From Thaumarchaeota archaeon CSP1-1 (lineage in GTDB: Archaea; Thermoproteota; Nitrososphaeria; Nitrososphaerales; Nitrosopumilaceae): a DNA stretch of 64,000 nucleotides. How positions within the stretch are numbered: the stretch's first letter is position 1; each line of letters opens with the position of its first letter. The notes under the pieces were generated by a model. It saw only the letters and a list, made by a program, of their open reading frames with translations, did not search any database and was not told where the DNA came from. The stretch lies in contig LDXL01000001.1 in the NCBI GenBank assembly GCA_001443365.1, forward strand, positions 1-64,000. The letters run 5' to 3'. The position numbers and the translations under genes were made by a program. This document shows positions 40,649 to 57,828 of this stretch, piece by piece.

Positions 40649-41635
40649 TTAAGATATTAGTTTAATCAAAATAGTAATGGCATAACCAACAGCCGCACTT
40701 GCAGGAATTGTAATAATCCAAGCCCAAACTATTCTCTTGCCAATACCCCAACGAACTGCTGACATTCTTCTGACTGAACCAGCTCCCATTATTGCTCCTG
40801 ATATTGCATGTGTGGTACTAGCTGGGATTCCTGCCCACGCAAGTACTGCTAAGACAGTGGCACCACCTGTCTCTGCTGCAAATCCTTGATATGGTTTAAG
40901 TTGAGTGATTTTAACTGCCATTGTTTTGACAATTCTCCATCCACCAAAAAATGTTCCAAGACTAATGGCAAGAGCAGATATTAAAATAACATAAAATGGA
41001 ATTTCAAATTGTCTGGTAGCTCCTTCAATTAACAGGATAAGTGCTATAATTCCCATAGTTTTCTGGCCGTCATTTGCGCCATGAGTTAATGAAAAGTACG
41101 TTGCTGACACTAGTTGCAGCTTGCCAAAAATTGAATTGACTTGAATTGGTTTTCTTTTTGCAAAGATTGTAAGTAATAAGATTCCAAGAAGAAATGCACC
41201 TATCATACCCACTACTGGTGATATGATAATTCCCATTCCCACTTTGGTTAAACCATCAAATAGAATTGCATGAGTGCCAACACCTGCAATACCTGCTCCA
41301 ATTATCCCACCAATCAATGCATGGCTACTTGATGAGGGTAATCCCCAAAACCATGTAATAAGATCCCAGACAATTGCCCCAACAAGTGCACCTAAAATGA
41401 TTTCCATAGTAACAAAATCTGGATTGATAATACCTTTTCCAATGGTAGTTGCAACAGCTACCCCAAAAATAAATGGGCCCAAAAAATTTGCAGCTGCTGC
41501 AAGGCTTACTGCGTGAAGAGGTTTTAAGACCCTAGTTCCAATTACTGTGGCAATAGAATTTGCAGCATCGTGAAACCCATTGATAAAATCAAAAAACAAG
41601 GCTAGCAGAATGGCAAAAATAGCTAGCTCAAACAT
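40649..41635 (-). CDS. pit: PiT family inorganic phosphate transporter
   Basis: This 328-residue membrane protein with about nine hydrophobic segments carries the PiT signatures FINGFHDAANSIATVIGTR near its N-terminus and SLTHGANDGQKTMGIIALI in the second half. It imports phosphate using an ion gradient. It lies 7 bases after a DUF47 gene, the typical PiT-accessory pairing. The family also carries other anions, but the DUF47 partner favours phosphate. Confidence 0.92.
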   Translation of the reverse strand: MFELAIFAILLALFFDFINGFHDAANSIATVIGTRVLKPLHAVSLAAAANFLGPFIFGVAVATTIGKGIINPDFVTMEIILGALVGAIVWDLITWFWGLPSSSSHALIGGIIGAGIAGVGTHAILFDGLTKVGMGIIISPVVGMIGAFLLGILLLTIFAKRKPIQVNSIFGKLQLVSATYFSLTHGANDGQKTMGIIALILLIEGATRQFEIPFYVILISALAISLGTFFGGWRIVKTMAVKITQLKPYQGFAAETGGATVLAVLAWAGIPASTTHAISGAIMGAGSVRRMSAVRWGIGKRIVWAWIITIPASAAVGYAITILIKLIS

Positions 41636-41642
41636 TTTTCAT

Positions 41643-42275
41643 CTAAGCGTATTTTAAAACAATATCTTCTATCACATCAGCTACATCTACAGTTCTGTCA
41701 GATGCAGTTTCAATAGATTCATAGATGTCTTTTAGTTTTATTATTGTAATCGGGTCATTACTTTCAAAAAGTTTTCCAACTGCGGTTCTATACAAATCAT
41801 CAATATTATGTTCAATATCGCTTGTATTTCTGCAGTGATTGATTAAATCCTTTTGTCCTTTTATATTGCCTAATTTAGAAATCATGAATTCAACTTCTTT
41901 TGTGGCCTTTGTGAGTTCTTTGGCAATCTCAAGCATATACGGAGGGGTTGATAAGATGTTATAACTGATAATTCTTCCTGAAATACCTTCAATAAAGTCA
42001 ATTACATCATCAGTCTTTGAAGCTATTCTTTGAAGGTCCTCTCGGTCAAGTGGAGTGATGAATGTTTTGTTTAATTCCGCAAAAACAGATCGAGTTAACT
42101 CATCTGCCTCTCGTTCAAATTTTTTAATTTTGGTTTGGTGTTCTTTTGCATTATTAATATCTTCAAATAAACGTACTAACTCTTCAGATACATCAACTGC
42201 TTTTTTTGAAAGATCATCAAGAATGGTAAGAATTTCTTTTTCGTTTGATTTTAACCACGAAAGCCATTGTCCCAT
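41643..42275 (-). CDS. DUF47 / PhoU-like phosphate transport accessory protein
   Basis: This 210-residue all-helical protein resembles the DUF47 (PhoU-like, PiT accessory) family. Its core REDLQRIASKTDDVIDFIEGISGRI and C-terminal DIEHNIDDLYRTAVGKLFE with TASDRTVDVADVIEDIV carry the conserved Asp/Glu metal clusters. It is thought to modulate PiT activity. It is first in the minus-strand pair with pit. A repeated upstream element lies at 42324-42361. Confidence 0.9.
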   Translation of the reverse strand: MGQWLSWLKSNEKEILTILDDLSKKAVDVSEELVRLFEDINNAKEHQTKIKKFEREADELTRSVFAELNKTFITPLDREDLQRIASKTDDVIDFIEGISGRIISYNILSTPPYMLEIAKELTKATKEVEFMISKLGNIKGQKDLINHCRNTSDIEHNIDDLYRTAVGKLFESNDPITIIKLKDIYESIETASDRTVDVADVIEDIVLKYA

Positions 42276-42323
42276 AACTTTGCATAATGCTTGAATGTTA
42301 AATCTCTGTTCTCCATATACTAT

Positions 42324-42361
42324 ATTGTAACTATATAGCGATCAAAATTGATGCGATCAAA
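42324..42361 (-). promoter_or_regulatory. Candidate operator before DUF47-pit
   Basis: The plus strand reads attgtaactatatagcgatc at 42324-42343. A close copy lies at 43082-43101, before the neighbouring secreted-protein gene. Two direct copies of gcgatcaaa follow at 42338-42346 and 42353-42361, 15 bases apart. A TATA-like element on the minus strand overlaps 42313-42327. The arrangement suggests a shared regulator of these two transcription units. Confidence 0.5.
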
Positions 42362-42389
42362 TAAAAAATTTAGAAATTATTGGAATTTG

Positions 42390-43013
42390 TTATCGTTCCA
42401 TCTTTTTTTGTTCTGATTGATAATCTATACTACTTTTTGCATCGGCTATTTCTTTGACTGCAGTCATTTCTTCATAAACTGGGTTATTAGGCTGATAACT
42501 ACCACATTGTATCTCAAAATGGTCTACCACAGCAAAACCTTTGTCAAACCAGCCTTCTTCATTGTCAGTTTTTGATACCACAAAATAATCTTTGATGAAA
42601 CAACTGGAGTATGAAAAGCTACGTTTCTGGTCTTTTCCTTGTGAAATGATGATTTTTACATCGAATGTATTATCATCTTTTTTTTCAGCTGCAGAGTTTC
42701 TGTACAAAAAGTCGTGATCAGCAACTTCGTGTAATAAAGGCGTTTCACCTACTATTTTTTCCAATGTGAAAGCGAATTTTTCCCTAGCCTTAAAACCGGT
42801 GTTTTGAGTAAAAATCTCGAATCGACTTATTTCTGTTCCTTTACTGAAATCAAACATGCCAGTAATCACTGCGTCTTCGGCAAATAGGTAGCCTTTGTCT
42901 TCACTTAATTCCTCAGCTATAATCTCGTTTAGTGAATATCCCTCGAAGGAAAGAATAGCAAAACTCACTGTTACAATAATTGCAGCAATTACGACTGTTT
43001 TTAGATTTGTCAT
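42390..43013 (-). CDS. Secreted protein of unknown function beside phosphate genes
   Basis: This 207-residue protein starts with a hydrophobic N-terminal segment (residues about 5-25, VVIAAIIVTVSFAILSF) that is either a signal peptide or an anchor. A beta-rich body follows with one or two cysteines (YSSCFIKDYF and FEIQCGSYQPN). No family is recognised. It is transcribed toward DUF47-pit. It shares their upstream element, so a phosphate-linked role is possible (inference). A TATA-like TTTATATC about 25 bases before the ATG suggests a leaderless mRNA. Confidence 0.65.
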   Translation of the reverse strand: MTNLKTVVIAAIIVTVSFAILSFEGYSLNEIIAEELSEDKGYLFAEDAVITGMFDFSKGTEISRFEIFTQNTGFKAREKFAFTLEKIVGETPLLHEVADHDFLYRNSAAEKKDDNTFDVKIIISQGKDQKRSFSYSSCFIKDYFVVSKTDNEEGWFDKGFAVVDHFEIQCGSYQPNNPVYEEMTAVKEIADAKSSIDYQSEQKKMER

Positions 43014-43047
43014 TAATTTTATTAAAAGAATAATGTGATATAAACTA

Positions 43048-43101
43048 GATCGCTATTTTTTATAGTTGTAACATAGAGGGTATTGTCACTATATAGCAAT
43101 G
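43048..43101 (-). promoter_or_regulatory. Candidate operator before the secreted protein gene
   Basis: The plus strand carries attgtcactatatagcaatg at 43082-43101, 17 of 20 bases identical to the element before the DUF47 gene. A gatcgc box lies at 43048-43053, the reverse complement of the gcgatc boxes there. It lies about 45 bases upstream of the predicted TATA at about 43035-43043. Confidence 0.5.
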
Positions 43102-43195: not shown

Positions 43196-44203
43196 TTATA
43201 TTTCACATTTCATTTCAATGTCGCCATCAGGATCTTGACCAATGTTGCACGAGTCGTTATCGTCACCACCATCAATTATATCGACACCAAAGTTTCCTGT
43301 CATAGTGTCATCACCTGATTGCCCTTTGATGACATCGTTTCCATCTCCACCTGATAGGTTGTCAGCACCTTCGTTTCCAAAGATGATGTCATCACCATCT
43401 CCTCCAAAGATACAATCATTTCCTTTTGCTCCCATTACTATATCATCTCCTTCTTCAGCAAATATTAGATCTGCGACGTTAGTTCCAGACAAGATATCAT
43501 CCTCAGGACTTCCCATGATCATATTATAGTAAGAATATGGTTTACCACAAGCTTGGACATTGATTGTCTGTGTGGCGCGAATTGAGTTTCCAAATGAATC
43601 AACGGCAGTCCAAGTAACTACAGTTTTTCCTAGAGAAAATGAAAATGGTGCGTCGTTTGTTATACTAATTGTAGAATCAGCAAGATCAGATGCTGATGCA
43701 TCACCTACATTCACAGGGGTTTCAAGTGCCACAGCATCAATGATGATATCGTCTGGAAGTAATAATTCTGGAGGAGTTGTATCAATTACAGTTATTTTCT
43801 GAGTTGAGCTTGCATAGTTTCCTTGCTCATCAACGGCTGTCCAAGTTACTGTTGTTTCTCCCATTGAGAAGAATCTTGGAGCATCATTTGTTACAGTTAC
43901 AACCCCTACTGAATCAGATGCCAATGGGGGAACAAGTGAAATGATGTTTTCATCAGAAGATGTAGCCTCAATCTCAATATTTTTTAGGGTTTCAAGTGAA
44001 GGTGGAGTTGTATCAATTATTGTAATAGTTTGAGTGGTAGTGGCTGAATTTTCTGAAGAATCTATAGCAGTCCAGGTTACGATTGTCTCTCCTAGTGAAA
44101 ATGCATCAGGGGCATCATTAGTAATTGATGAAATCGATACCAAGTCTGAGGCTTGTGCTTGACCTAAATTGACGATATTATTTTGAGCACTAGAGGCCTC
44201 CAA
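43196..44203 (-). pseudogene. HYR/RTX C-terminal part of a frameshifted surface protein
   Basis: These 335 residues continue the large protein upstream. They hold the rest of one HYR repeat, two more (opening DTTPPSLETLKN and DTTPPELLLPDD), and an RTX-type calcium-binding region with G-G-x-G-x-D nonapeptides (GGDGDDIIFG, GGDGNDVIKG). The frame is open back to about 44260, where it meets the other frame. The apparent TTG start lies inside a HYR repeat and is not a natural start. Alone it has no signal peptide. Confidence 0.75.
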
Positions 44204-44244
44204 AATAATATCTTCGGGAGCTATGATGGATGGAGCAGTGGTGT

Positions 44245-47200
44245 CTACAACAGCAATTTGTTGTGCACCGGTGCAGTATTTCCAGATTCATCTGTTACAA
44301 CCCATGTTATTGTTGTTAAACCAAACGGAAATACCTTTGGTGCGTCATTTTCAACTGAAGATACACCGACAAGATCATCTGCATAAATTCCTCCAAAGTC
44401 AACAACATTTTGAGTTTCACTTGTTGCTTCAACTGTAATTATTTTAGGTACACTAACGGTAGGCGGAGTGGTATCTACTACATTTACTAATTGAATATCA
44501 GTTGATGAAAGTCCACCTAAATCAGTTGCAGTCCACGTTACAGTTGTTTTTCCAACAGGAAAAACCTCAGGGGCATCATTAGTAATTGAGCCTATTCCAA
44601 TATAGTCAGATGCAGTTACCTCTCCAAGTTCCACAATATTTTCTAATGAAGATGTTGCTTCAATCTGTACTGCTTCAGGTGCAGTAATTGATGGAGGAGT
44701 TGTATCAATAATTGATACTTTTTGGGTTGCAGTTGCAGAGTTTCCAGCAGTATCAATAGCAGTCCAAGTTACTAAATTATCACCAAGTGGAAATACATCA
44801 GGGGCATCATTAGTAATTGATATGACACCCACAATATCATTAGCGTTAGCAACTCCTATTGCAACAACATTAGAGGTTGGGTCTTGTCCTTCAAGTATTA
44901 CATCAGATGGCGGTTCAATCAAAGGAGCAGTAGTATCAATAATCGAAATTATTTGTTCAGCAGATGCAGTATTTCCATGCATATCTGTTGCAGTCCAGGT
45001 AATTATGGTGTCTCCAAGATAGAAAAGACTTGGTGCGTTATTGGTTAGCGAGTCTATTCCTATTACATCAGATACAGTGGCCTCGCCTATTACGATAGGC
45101 ATTCCTGAGGAAGTAGTGGCTTCAATAATTAGGTCTGAAGGAGGAGTAAGAGTTGGAGAAGTGGTATCGCTAATAGTTACAACCTGAGTATCTGTTGCAA
45201 TATTTCCAGATGTATCAACTCCAGTCCAAGTAACTGTGGTCATTCCTATTGGAAAAGAATCAGGAGCATCGTTTGCATAAGACTCTACACCAATAATATC
45301 ATAAACCCAAGGCAAATCTAAATCTACAATATTTGCGTCAGGATCAGTTGCTTCAAGTAAGATATCATTGGGCGCTCTAATTTGTGGAGAAGTTGTATCA
45401 ACTACTGTGACTGTTTGTTCTGCAGATACAGAATTACCAATTTTATCTGTTGCAGTCCATGTTACAACTGTTGTTCCAAATGGAAATGCGCTAGGGGAAT
45501 TATTTGTAATTGTAGAGATTCCCGTTACATCTTCAGCTGTTGCATTACCTAAGGCAACAATGTTGTTATCAACACTAGTAGCTTCAATTGTAATATCTTC
45601 TGGAATAATCAAAGTTGGAGAAGTTGTATCAATTACAGTTACTGATTGAGTTACAGTAGCAGAGTTACCAGCTGGATCTTGAACAAACCAAGTAACTATA
45701 GTTTCACCAAATGGGAAAACTTGTGGTGCATTATTTGAAATTATTACATTTTGTACATCTGTGACAAGTGGTGCTACAAGATCAATAACATTTTCATTTA
45801 ATGATGTAGCCTCAAAGATGATATCTGAAGGTGAAGAAAGCATCGGTACCGTTTTATCAACAACACTTACTAATTGTTGTCCACTTGCAACGTTTCCAGA
45901 TGAATCAGCTGCAGTCCAAGTGACAGTTGTATTTCCAATGCTAAAGAATTGGGGAGCATCATTTGTAATTGATATTATTTTTCCATTATCAATTACTGCT
46001 GCCTCTCCAAGATAGATATCATTTTTATCAAAACTTGTCGCCTCAACAATAATATCTTCTGGCACTAATATGGTAGGGGGTTTTGTGTCAACTACAATTA
46101 TTTTTTGTATTACACTAACAGAATTTGTTGCAACATCAGTTGCAGTCCAAGTAACTAAAGTTTCTCCTAGTGGAAAAACCTCAGGTGCATCATTTGTAAT
46201 TGATATGACACCAACAGCATCTGTAGCAATAGGAGATTCCAATTCGATTAGATTTGCTTCAGTGGTTTCTGCTTGAATAGTGATTTCTGGTAAAGCCGTG
46301 ATAGTTGGAGGTATAGTATCTACAACCCTAATTTCCTGTGTGGCTATACCCATATTTCCTGCACCATCAATTGCAGTCCAGATAATAGTAGTAGTTCCTA
46401 ATGGAAATTGTGCAGGCGCATTACTAGATAGTGATTTAATTCCACTTGCGTCTGTGGCCATTGCTTGTCCAACAGAAACAGGTGTAAGACCACCTGTGGC
46501 CTCAATAAACAAACCATTTGGTGGAGTAATGACTGGTTTTGTCAGATCTCCTGGGACTGGATTAACTGGGTTCAGTGTTTGGGTTTGTACTTCTGAGGTA
46601 GTTTTTTCTGTTGAGGAATATGTTTGAACAATACTAGATACTATTGGAGAGCCAAACTTTTGGATTCTGTGACCGTTTGAATCAACTACAAACAAGTAAC
46701 CATTTTTATCTAATGCAATATCTTTTGGCGTTTTAAATTGACCATTTGCAATTCCCATGCTTCCCCAACTAGTCAACGTTGTTCCTTCTTGTGATAATAG
46801 TAATATTCTGTTGTTGCCTGTGTCTACTGCGTAAAGATTACCAGAAGGATCAGTTACCATCCCTTGTGGCATAATTGAAAAACCTGCAAAGTTTGGTCCA
46901 AAGCTTTGGGAATAAACTCCCTTTGAATCAAATTTGAAAATTTTATTTTTTCCTGGATCAGAAATGAAAATATTTTCTTTATTGTCAATTGTAATACCTA
47001 TAGGGGAAACAAACTTGCCATCTCCAGTTCCACTTTCTCCAAATTCGGAAATAAATTCACCATTAGGGGTGAATTTTTGAATTCGTTGATTTCCTGTATC
47101 AACTACATAAATTTCTCCATCAGGACTAACTGCAATTCCGTTAGGAAGTAAAAATTGGCCTTGTTCTTTTCCTTCAGCACCCCACTTTGAAAGAAATTTT

Positions 47201-47577
47201 CCATTTAGATCAAATTTCTGAACATTATGTAATTGAGTGTCTACAACAAATACAGTTCCATTAAATACTGCAATTCCTGCTGGAGAGTGAAATTGTCCTG
47301 AGCCTGTGCCACTACTGCCCCAAGCTTTCAAGAATTCCCCATCATTGTTAAATTTTTGAACTCTCATATTCCCAAGATCAGTCACATACACATTTCCTAA
47401 ATCATCAATGGCTATATTTTGCGGAAATGAAAAAAATCCAGATTTACCAATTCCTGATTCTCCCCATGCTAAGATAAAGGGGTGGCTAGAACTAGTATTT
47501 GCCATGGCAAATGGCATAGGGATAGCTGTGCCAATAATCATAAAAATTACCACTAGTGATATTACTGCTCTCAACAA
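44245..47577 (-). CDS. Secreted NHL- and HYR-repeat protein, N-terminal part before a frameshift
   Basis: This 1110-residue reading frame has a signal peptide (residues 1-26), about six NHL-type propeller blades (residues about 30-320, repeated FSFPQNIAIDDLGNVYVTDLGN-type units), then ten complete HYR repeats of about 82 residues, each with DTTxP at the start and a W-T-A-x-D-x-x-G-N motif at the end. The eleventh repeat breaks after GNTAPV, with an out-of-frame HNKLLL ending. Joining to the 43196-44203 frame with one base restored gives 1460 codons plus stop. This suggests a giant Ca-dependent adhesin split by one indel. Confidence 0.85.
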   Translation of the reverse strand: MLRAVISLVVIFMIIGTAIPMPFAMANTSSSHPFILAWGESGIGKSGFFSFPQNIAIDDLGNVYVTDLGNMRVQKFNNDGEFLKAWGSSGTGSGQFHSPAGIAVFNGTVFVVDTQLHNVQKFDLNGKFLSKWGAEGKEQGQFLLPNGIAVSPDGEIYVVDTGNQRIQKFTPNGEFISEFGESGTGDGKFVSPIGITIDNKENIFISDPGKNKIFKFDSKGVYSQSFGPNFAGFSIMPQGMVTDPSGNLYAVDTGNNRILLLSQEGTTLTSWGSMGIANGQFKTPKDIALDKNGYLFVVDSNGHRIQKFGSPIVSSIVQTYSSTEKTTSEVQTQTLNPVNPVPGDLTKPVITPPNGLFIEATGGLTPVSVGQAMATDASGIKSLSSNAPAQFPLGTTTIIWTAIDGAGNMGIATQEIRVVDTIPPTITALPEITIQAETTEANLIELESPIATDAVGVISITNDAPEVFPLGETLVTWTATDVATNSVSVIQKIIVVDTKPPTILVPEDIIVEATSFDKNDIYLGEAAVIDNGKIISITNDAPQFFSIGNTTVTWTAADSSGNVASGQQLVSVVDKTVPMLSSPSDIIFEATSLNENVIDLVAPLVTDVQNVIISNNAPQVFPFGETIVTWFVQDPAGNSATVTQSVTVIDTTSPTLIIPEDITIEATSVDNNIVALGNATAEDVTGISTITNNSPSAFPFGTTVVTWTATDKIGNSVSAEQTVTVVDTTSPQIRAPNDILLEATDPDANIVDLDLPWVYDIIGVESYANDAPDSFPIGMTTVTWTGVDTSGNIATDTQVVTISDTTSPTLTPPSDLIIEATTSSGMPIVIGEATVSDVIGIDSLTNNAPSLFYLGDTIITWTATDMHGNTASAEQIISIIDTTAPLIEPPSDVILEGQDPTSNVVAIGVANANDIVGVISITNDAPDVFPLGDNLVTWTAIDTAGNSATATQKVSIIDTTPPSITAPEAVQIEATSSLENIVELGEVTASDYIGIGSITNDAPEVFPVGKTTVTWTATDLGGLSSTDIQLVNVVDTTPPTVSVPKIITVEATSETQNVVDFGGIYADDLVGVSSVENDAPKVFPFGLTTITWVVTDESGNTAPVHNKLLL

Positions 47578-56370: not shown

Positions 56371-57828
56371 TTATCCAATCTTCATTATTCCGTTTTTAAT
56401 TAAATATTGAATTCCCTGAACAAAGTCATTATCAGAGATTTGACCACTAGCCCACCAACCAGCATTATTTTTTATCCATGATGGTATTTCATCTGAGCCA
56501 GTACCTGAACCAGGTGTAGTAGCTGGAATTTTCATTATTCCTTGATTAATTAGGTATTGTATTCCCAAGACAAAGTCAGAGTCTTCAATCTGATCATTTG
56601 CCCACCAACCAGCACTATTTTTTATCCAATTTGGAATATTGAGACTGGGTCCAGGTGGTAGAGTTATCTTTCCCCCAATTGGAATATCAATTTGAAGAAA
56701 ATCTGGATTATCTGGAATAACATTTTGAGGGGCCAAACCATGAATCCAAATAACATAATGGGCGGTTCCAGGATTCTCTTTGACAATGGTTGATTTTAGT
56801 ACCTGACCAGATTCTGAGAATAAGAAATTGCGCCCTTCTTCCTTAGCTAATGATCTTAAAGGAGGGAAAGTCAGTTTTTCATCAACTACAAATATGTCAT
56901 ATTGGACTTGGTTAAGAAATTCAGTTTCATGAAATTTATTCTTAAACTCTATGAACCATTCTATTTCACAGCCAGTTGCAGGGTCTGGGGGACCATATCT
57001 GAGGTCAATTAGATATTTGCCATCTTTTGTACTGCGTTTAATGTCTACTAAATCATAATGTTGGGGACATCCAGCCACAACTTGCTCTTGGGTAGTAGCA
57101 ACTACACTAGTAAATGGGTTGGAATTGACATTTTCTTTATAATCTAATAGCTCAAAGCGATATTCTTGTGGAGCTTTTCCTGTAGAAACCTGAGTCCATG
57201 TATTAGCTTTTACAGGAAATGGAAAATCATCCACAACCCAAACTTTACTTACTAAACCACCAGTTTTCCATTGAATACGTACTGTGTCATAGGTACCAGC
57301 TGGAACTGAGACGGTCTCCAATGCTGTAGGGATTATTTGTTCGCCCCCAATGTTTGCAATTTTTCCCCAAGACGGTGCAGAAAAAGATTTCTCACCTGAA
57401 GTATCTGACCCAGTATTTTTAGTCGCATACGCAGATAACCAAACTACAGAGGATTTGAAGGCACCCCTATAGACACTTAATTCGCTACTACCACCACTTG
57501 GTTCAGGAGCAATTTTTCCAAGCTCTATGTTACCTTTCACAATTTTGTTTCCATCATAAACCACGGCCTGAGCAAGCCACTTGTCTTCAGTACCTACTTT
57601 GATTGTTCCTTCAATCCATAATTGCATTTCAAATTCACTACATTCTTTGTAATCAACATGACAAATTTCATATTCAAAATAATCTCCTGGTTTTAATCCC
57701 TCACCAACATACCAAGTTCCTGGATGATTCACTCCTCCACCTTGATATTGTGCTAACGCTAAAGGCATGGAAACCGAGCCAGAAAATAATACAACTATCA
57801 GTGAAAGAGTTAGTAGTAATGCCTTCAA
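56371..57828 (-). CDS. Secreted protein with two C-terminal WIKNxAGWW repeats
   Basis: This 485-residue secreted protein has a signal peptide (ALLLTLSLIVVLFSGSVSM at residues 3-21) and a large beta-rich ectodomain. It ends in two roughly 37-residue repeats that read WIKNSAGWWANDQIEDSDFV and WIKNNAGWWASGQISDNDFV, each followed by GIQYLI. I know these repeats from many secreted thaumarchaeal proteins; they may be a wall- or ligand-binding module (inference). No enzyme motif is visible. The start follows an AT-rich leader. Confidence 0.82.
   Translation of the reverse strand: MKALLLTLSLIVVLFSGSVSMPLALAQYQGGGVNHPGTWYVGEGLKPGDYFEYEICHVDYKECSEFEMQLWIEGTIKVGTEDKWLAQAVVYDGNKIVKGNIELGKIAPEPSGGSSELSVYRGAFKSSVVWLSAYATKNTGSDTSGEKSFSAPSWGKIANIGGEQIIPTALETVSVPAGTYDTVRIQWKTGGLVSKVWVVDDFPFPVKANTWTQVSTGKAPQEYRFELLDYKENVNSNPFTSVVATTQEQVVAGCPQHYDLVDIKRSTKDGKYLIDLRYGPPDPATGCEIEWFIEFKNKFHETEFLNQVQYDIFVVDEKLTFPPLRSLAKEEGRNFLFSESGQVLKSTIVKENPGTAHYVIWIHGLAPQNVIPDNPDFLQIDIPIGGKITLPPGPSLNIPNWIKNSAGWWANDQIEDSDFVLGIQYLINQGIMKIPATTPGSGTGSDEIPSWIKNNAGWWASGQISDNDFVQGIQYLIKNGIMKIG

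Follow-up and report, generated by a model that had tools for sequence, protein, structure and literature searches.

The element that occurs twice in the window (the whole stretch of 64,000 nucleotides that was analysed) is probably the operator of a small phosphate regulon in the Nitrosopumilales, and its most likely regulator is a protein that joins an AbrB-type domain to PhoU (AbrB-PhoU). The element itself, its conservation, its targets, its helical phasing and its absence in operon context are demonstrated here; the regulator, the direction of control, the phosphate signal, the leaderless transcripts and the function of the secreted protein among the targets are inferred, and neither expression nor binding data stand behind them. 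The minus-strand genes that the two copies precede are the DUF47-pit pair and the gene for the secreted protein:

40649..41635, minus strand: Pit-type phosphate transporter, 328 aa (PF01384, E 3.8e-90)
41643..42275, minus strand: DUF47 (PhoU_div) protein, 210 aa (PF01865, E 1e-26)
42298..42302, minus strand: TATA-like TTTAA, 27-23 nt before the DUF47 start codon (read from the sequence; role inferred)
42320..42338, minus strand: putative operator before DUF47-pit, CTATATAGTTACAATATAG, a near-perfect 19-bp inverted repeat; octamer CTATATAG at 42331-42338
42338..42358, no strand: two GCGATC boxes upstream of the DUF47 operator (GATC at 42340-42343 and 42355-42358)
42390..43013, minus strand: secreted or membrane-anchored protein, 207 aa (hydrophobic N-terminus by inspection; predicted Hcp/tail-tube fold, residues ~42-180)
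43038..43044, minus strand: TATA-like TTTATAT, 31-25 nt before the secreted-gene start codon (read from the sequence; role inferred)
43048..43053, minus strand: GCGATC between the secreted-gene operator and the start codon, not conserved in that promoter class
43081..43096, minus strand: putative operator before the secreted gene, CTATATAGTGACAATA; octamer CTATATAG at 43089-43096

Positions 43196-47577 (minus strand) encode a large surface protein rich in repeats, those at the C-terminus being acidic and glycine-rich. It is present as two ORFs (44245-47577 and 43196-44203) in different frames, the repeats continuing across the break. From sequence alone, this may be a single gene split by a frameshift.

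The first-pass annotation had reported two copies of a 20-base element, identical at 17 of 20 bases, upstream of both genes. This was confirmed for positions 42324-42343 and 43082-43101, and shifting the pair by one base raises the identity to 18/20 (TATTGTAACTATATAGCGAT / TATTGTCACTATATAGCAAT). The copies are 758 bp apart, and their similarity runs on over 34 nt at 76%. Read on the gene strand, the shared element is the octamer CTATATAG plus a right arm, and the distance from the start of the octamer to the start codon is 63 nt for DUF47 and 83 nt for the secreted gene. The pattern taken from the pair, with up to three mismatches, matches twice in the window (shuffles mean 0.09, with 0/100 reaching two). 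The whole-genome search that the annotation had suggested located the full motif at the same two places only, and at no third, in the 1,358,434 bases (1.36 Mb) of the genome. The search pattern is derived from the pair itself, and other genomes are a stronger test. The looser pattern CTATATAGNNNCAATA (two mismatches) matched the window's own genome 14 times forward and 23 times in reverse, where the reversed control scored 23 and 20, and no further sites can be claimed.

The comparison with relatives includes a protein search with DUF47, from which the best 80 of 244 loci were taken (titles mostly Nitrosopumilus, Nitrosopumilales or Thaumarchaeota). The octamer CTATATAG lies within 90 nt of the DUF47 start codon in 74 of these loci, and at exactly 62 nt in 57. 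There are 23 other octamers in the 80 loci, 17 of which lie 1.8-2.0 kb or 0.7-1.0 kb upstream of DUF47; since this is where the homologs of the secreted gene begin, the element before that gene is conserved too. Three more of the 23 are at -3.57 kb, before pstC. Counted over annotated loci as distinct 110-nt upstream regions, the octamer is found before DUF47 in 82/91, before the secreted gene in 32/46, before pstS in 12/13 (the single miss being a spurious match to a C-terminal stretch), before pstC in 11/15 and before the AbrB-PhoU gene of the pst cluster in 10/18, while the core AbrB-PhoU gene has it in 24/24 (the 24 best-matching genomes, all of one family). No octamer was found in the 110-nt regions before pit (0/86), pstA (0/15), phoU (0/15) or pstB (0/43, these matches including other ABC ATPases). 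The reversed octamer is absent from every promoter class, though about threefold commoner genome-wide (151 against 47 in five genomes). All these counts come from related genomes and are hence not independent. The pstC gene and the divergent AbrB-PhoU gene have one physical site in common, the octamer being shared wherever both have one; one genus-level group instead has a perfect palindrome, CTATATTGATCAATATAG, in this intergenic region (L202, L265 and L275, with a variant in L264). The arms outside the octamer vary among the promoter classes, and no single full-length operator can be defined. The cis-element test of a phosphate regulon, in the general sense, is met: the promoters of DUF47-pit, pstS and pstC carry the octamer and the operon-internal genes examined do not.

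For the genome-wide view we have compared five genomes, that of the window and four from other genera of the same family. They contain 8, 13, 6, 10 and 10 octamers, against 26, 33, 21, 33 and 38 for the reversed control. The surroundings of all 47 octamers were read: 21 are in phosphate promoters (DUF47-pit in four genomes, the secreted gene in five, pstS in four, the divergent pstC/AbrB-PhoU region in three and core AbrB-PhoU in five), five are at one other conserved place and the remaining 21 fall in coding sequence or at unassigned places, which puts 26/47 away from phosphate promoters. The three phosphate sites of the window's genome are those of DUF47-pit, the secreted gene and core AbrB-PhoU (contig C3, octamer 41889-41896, gene from 41919). 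From the two copies the first-pass annotation had proposed that one regulator controls DUF47-pit and the secreted gene and that the secreted protein belongs to phosphate uptake, and it had suggested a comparison of orthologous promoters. The octamer does recur before both genes in relatives, and comparative genomics supports both proposals, without expression data behind either. The occurrence of the motif at random places, which was to count against the idea, is partly met by the 21/47 octamers elsewhere.

The other conserved place, outside the phosphate promoters, holds one octamer per genome (G000:C4:188722, i.e. L206:1523; L202:10487; L214:1390; L260:1458; L191:1501), beside what we take to be a branched-chain aminotransferase-like gene, judged by reading the start of the protein without a search. 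This octamer is intergenic and its flanks are partly conserved, for example CTATATAGATCAGCTCTA on one strand (L206, L214, L260). Rfam at the gathering threshold gave no family for the three loci scanned, among them the aminotransferase-side sites of L206 and L214; the site could be an undescribed RNA or another target.

A PstS query gave 27 matches in the window's genome (98% complete). Because all of them involve only the C-terminal end, mostly about residues 372-416 (one from 359, one from 291), we take the species to lack PstS. The same PstS end (~372-416) matches 56377-56499 and 56527-56649 (minus strand) in the window and 25 other places in this genome, some in tandem, and is a module common to many proteins, perhaps for surface sorting.

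Searches with longer forms of the motif depended on the sample. The form CTATATAGN{2,4}AATA matched in 9/21 genomes (20 relatives and the window's own), with DUF47 in just 1/12 loci fetched from other genomes; the 20 relatives spanned many other families, and this sample was replaced by the genomes of 24 of the 80 DUF47 loci. There CTATATAGN{2,4}MATA matched in 22/24 genomes (36 sites), and the 30 loci fetched included DUF47 in 16 and AbrB-PhoU in two. Four IMG/VR contigs match an 18-base form of the motif and none encodes any reference protein, and these viral copies were dismissed as chance.

The arrangement of the genes provides a natural control. Seven loci have DUF47-pit as the last genes of the pst operon, 99-131 nt past phoU (L048, L056, L062 and L077, titled Nitrosarchaeum, together with L200, L263 and L266), and the octamer is present before DUF47 in none of them (0/7). 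Where DUF47 is not directly behind phoU, it is present in 82/84, and in the two exceptions (L005 and L007) the same place has a form with one or with two mismatches. The element is thus a feature of the promoter, and it is missing where DUF47-pit can ride on an octamer-bearing promoter upstream.

The distance from octamer to start codon is regular. It is 62-63 nt for DUF47 (with single cases of 52, 64, 65, 66 and 71), 71-72 and 81 nt for pstC, 71-72 and 81-82 nt for pstS, and 71-73, 81-82 and 91-92 nt for the secreted gene; the clusters overall, at 62, 71-72, 81-82 and 91-92, are steps of one helical turn. Rayleigh statistics for 108 dereplicated sites of DUF47, the secreted gene, pstS and pstC give R 0.93 with a best period of 9.75, and for the 10 class-distance clusters R is 0.975, a value matched by 0/20,000 random sets drawn uniformly over 50-95. 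Left out of this analysis were core AbrB-PhoU (19-30 nt, with two extra copies at 51), the pst-cluster AbrB-PhoU, whose octamer at 53-55 nt does not fit the phase seen elsewhere (nearest 52), and, in L202, the farther of two octamers common to pstS and the secreted gene (144-145 nt). As the spacing shifts only by whole turns, we infer a bound protein that touches the transcription machinery. Most DUF47, secreted-gene and pstS promoters also have a TATA-like box ~31-25 nt before the start codon, with the octamer 30-60 nt further upstream; none of three TATA-like patterns was found at -40 to -20 in seven dereplicated pstC promoters. With the box so close to the start codon, the transcripts are probably leaderless, an inference from sequence alone.

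At the core AbrB-PhoU gene the arrangement is of another kind: the octamer is at -28 to -30 in 28/29 loci (five of them duplicates) and at 19 in L243, that is, at the position of the TATA box itself. The octamer is self-complementary and TATA-like, and its conservation at this gene could in part be that of a TATA box. The core octamer also lies 62-74 nt upstream of a divergent neighbour in five genomes (69-71 in three), and this neighbour might be an additional target, or the target instead.

The core AbrB-PhoU protein of the window's species (L205:1520-2569) has PF04014 at residues 11-56 followed by PF01895, and the pst-cluster paralog (L203:8175-9212) has both domains as well. These proteins therefore have the AbrB/MazE-PhoU fusion architecture of archaea, an N-terminal SpoVT/AbrB-type domain and PhoU in one chain; the PhoU portion has sequence matches among PhoU proteins of known structure (1t72, E 3.7e-8). 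Matches to the core protein occur in 114/121 genomes of the order. We propose AbrB-PhoU as the regulator because its own gene carries the element in all of the genomes examined for it. It is the best candidate, inferred from genomic association only. Six loci from other families (L245-L250) were also considered, and the upstream region was obtained for four, with distances counted by hand. The octamer is ~31 nt before the likely start in L247, and ~51 nt before an in-frame upstream ATG in L248 and L249, with ATATATAG at ~31; it is absent from the upstream region of L246. Given its presence in three loci of other families, the link between octamer and AbrB-PhoU may predate the family. AbrB-PhoU is also found just behind DUF47-pit in six Nitrosopelagicus-type loci (L069, L072, L074, L079, L080 and L082), where its promoter stretch is GAACTATGTT, without the octamer.

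The first-pass annotation had also pointed to GCGATC boxes near both copies. The hexamers are indeed there (42338, 42353 and 43048), and the remark is right for DUF47-pit promoters and weak for those of the secreted gene. In the window as a whole GCGATC is not enriched (9 found, 7.7 expected). Within the 70 nt upstream of the octamer, 62 dereplicated DUF47 promoters have 96 GATC against 9.5 in shuffles, with at least one in 59/62; the peaks are at -33, -22 and -12 to -9 from the octamer, and the commonest spacing between neighbours is 11. GATC is likewise enriched in the pstC/AbrB-PhoU intergenic region (9 against 1.0 and 10 against 1.4). The excess is weak in secreted-gene promoters (9 against 3.6 expected upstream of the octamer, 8 against 5.4 downstream), in pstS promoters (5 against 2.2) and in core AbrB-PhoU promoters (9 against 3.2). 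Such boxes probably point to a second DNA-binding factor at DUF47-pit, an inference from sequence alone.

No Pfam or NCBIfam family matches the secreted protein at E 0.1; it has no counterpart among PDB sequences or phage records, and only two PHROGs of unknown function come up, at E 0.04-0.08; no relatives were found in viral contigs or phage records. Homologs occur in 19/121 genomes of the order, all of one family. A phosphate gene is no more than 3 kb away from 40/46 homologs examined, and the exact octamer is present at 31 of these 40, as against 1/6 of those without a phosphate gene within that distance. The figure of 40 is biased, as many of these loci were fetched for holding DUF47; those of the pst cluster came from the search with the secreted protein. 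The exact octamer is missing from the region taken for 14/46 homologs, four of which have a one-mismatch form at a phased place, and some of the 46 start codons are placed too far downstream, so that the octamer of L041 was missed in the class count. Four homologs away from phosphate genes (L267, L272, L277 and L279) form a three-domain paralog group; all lack the octamer and have a different promoter stretch that looks similar among the four. What we take to be a DNA topoisomerase IB-like gene adjoins three of them. Conceivably another regulator uses the same kind of protein for another purpose in this group. The octamer is also absent from L271, a fifth homolog away from phosphate genes.

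The AlphaFold2 model of the 207 aa protein has a mean pLDDT of 76.6, with 88/207 residues at or above 90 and residues 1-42 unreliable. For this single-domain model the 50 best PDB rows from Foldseek consist solely of Hcp proteins and components of phage tails or contractile injection systems (best E 2e-5, prob 1.0). VIA-align gave 50 rows with Z from 12.7 to 9.5, the best being 9qgl_5A (Z 12.7, rmsd 4.2, 125 aligned) and 8z7k_A (Z 12.3, rmsd 2.6, 112 aligned), and all are Hcp or tail parts except one row described as GspE ATPase. Among predicted viral structures, the best matches include phage tail-tube proteins. In many Nitrosopumilus the protein has three repeats or domains in one chain; the model of such a protein (mean pLDDT 78.5, pTM 0.77) matches Hcp and tail proteins by single domains, and its first two domains align jointly to the two-domain phage baseplate proteins 9b45_d and 8eon_E (188 and 192 residues, Z 9.9, rmsd 3.7 and 4.1). 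Its Foldseek list also has unrelated beta-rich proteins at low probability. The protein is thus predicted to have the Hcp/phage-tail-tube beta-barrel fold, the structural criterion for which is met; assembly into a ring or tube, and any function, are inferred at most, and a fold in common with Hcp and tail tubes establishes no function. A hydrophobic N-terminal segment resembles a signal peptide, and two cysteines are invariant in 34 aligned domains, perhaps as a disulfide outside the cell. No injection-system genes were noticed in the neighbourhoods read, this being incidental reading without a dedicated search.

These observations suggest the following scheme. A dimeric or larger regulator would bind CTATATAG and its weaker arms. 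For the structural genes (DUF47-pit, pstS, pstCAB-phoU and the secreted gene) the operator would lie ~62, 72, 81 or 92 nt upstream, on one face of the helix, a placement that would fit a stereospecific contact with the transcription machinery, activation being the simplest form. For core AbrB-PhoU, an octamer at the TATA position would fit autorepression, as the bound regulator would block TBP. If AbrB-PhoU is the regulator, its PhoU part would read the state of phosphate or of the transporter and so determine DNA binding, with no two-component system involved; the regulon of the window's species would comprise DUF47-pit, the secreted protein and AbrB-PhoU. It is possible, with much less confidence, to go further and imagine a one-component AbrB-PhoU switch that activates pit, pst and the secreted gene and represses itself, with the secreted product a domesticated tail-tube-fold protein forming six-domain rings or tubes in the envelope under phosphate scarcity; the ring would then consist of six single-domain or two three-domain chains and might, for example, guide or concentrate phosphate for the transporter.

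The rival that deserves most attention is that the operator and regulon are real, while another DNA-binding protein is the regulator and the AbrB-PhoU genes are mere members. An octamer before AbrB-PhoU is equally expected of a target, and binding data are lacking. AbrB-type proteins are often weak in sequence preference, and this octamer, by contrast, is sharp. Against this, the octamer stands before core AbrB-PhoU in 24/24 genomes examined, including the window's species, in which no PstS was found, and AbrB-PhoU is the sole DNA-binding protein with an octamer before its gene among the surroundings read, a search that was not exhaustive. On balance we lean, if only slightly, away from this rival.

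The other two explanations have much less in their favor. One could suppose that CTATATAG is a plain TATA box, or some basal-promoter part of highly expressed genes: it is TATA-like, it occupies the TATA position of core AbrB-PhoU, and the seven pstC promoters lack any of the three TATA-like patterns at -40 to -20. Yet most DUF47, secreted-gene and pstS promoters have a separate TATA-like box at ~-30, the reversed form outnumbers the octamer (151 against 47), and the octamer turns up repeatedly at phosphate promoters and at a single further conserved place, with 21 scattered sites left over. The plain TATA box is rejected on the strength of the separate box in those three classes (none was found for pstC, and the pst-cluster AbrB-PhoU class was outside this test), and this rival seems to us very improbable. 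Just as implausible is the idea that the secreted gene is a mere neighbour whose element is left over from a local duplication of promoter DNA. The proximity of the window's copies, 758 bp apart and similar over 34 nt, speaks for it; however, the secreted-gene octamer of other genera is mostly at 81 or 91-92 nt with different flanks, the gene that bears it stands either before DUF47-pit or between pstS and AbrB-PhoU, and the octamer is absent in 5/6 homologs without a phosphate gene within 3 kb. As the element recurs in other settings, local duplication is rejected.

Ammonia-oxidizing archaea rank with the most abundant cells of the ocean, and the persistence of their transporter genes is shaped by phosphate (PMC7490402, PMC9239043). 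The element supplies a concrete list of targets, a candidate regulator and spacing predictions that are open to in vitro work, and it offers a way into what a secreted family, predicted to fold like a phage tail tube, might do. It is undescribed in the titles and abstract starts of the open-access literature searched, subscription journals being scarcely covered; as far as such searches reach, the operator, its phasing, the target set and the fold of the secreted protein are new, with no experiment behind them.

Several known systems invite comparison. The secreted protein has the same predicted fold as Hcp, which forms the T6SS tube, and the phage tail-tube proteins, from whose families it is set apart by the lack of a sequence match, its N-terminal segment and its two cysteines. 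In ammonia-oxidizing archaea, Pst is said to be under phoU and Pit under accessory proteins (PMC7490402, PMC9239043), and in Ca. Nitrosopelagicus brevis a single location next to phoU is occupied by either Pst or Pit, and no gene is more differentiated between two ocean basins than this phoU (PMC9239043). We infer that it may correspond to the AbrB-PhoU gene adjoining DUF47-pit in Nitrosopelagicus-type loci; the sections of these papers that bear on the matter mention no DNA element, AbrB domain or secreted protein. A census of Pyrococcus furiosus counts PhoU-like proteins as transcription factors, a large archaeal family (PMC6316755); it is a domain count, with no operator, targets or test in the sections bearing on it. 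Haloarchaea have phosphate control of their own, including the P-box of Halobacterium. The Haloferax sRNA132 system (PMC6560208) resembles the proposed regulon in the phosphate-dependent control of an archaeal pst operon, but belongs to another lineage and has no link to this octamer or to AbrB-PhoU in the material that bears on it. In the bacterial Pho regulon one cis element stands before pst-type and other phosphate genes and the regulator genes are inside the regulon. The PhoR-PhoB system with its Pho box (PMC4415409) shares with ours the single cis element and the inclusion of regulator genes. The Pho box consists of direct repeats about 11 bp apart, and this PhoB-type criterion is not met by the archaeal element, which by inspection is a palindromic octamer with arms of the inverted type. 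Where the bacterial system has PhoR-PhoB, the archaeal one has the self-complementary CTATATAG with its arms and a one-component candidate, AbrB-PhoU, operates at archaeal TATA-type promoters and includes Pit.
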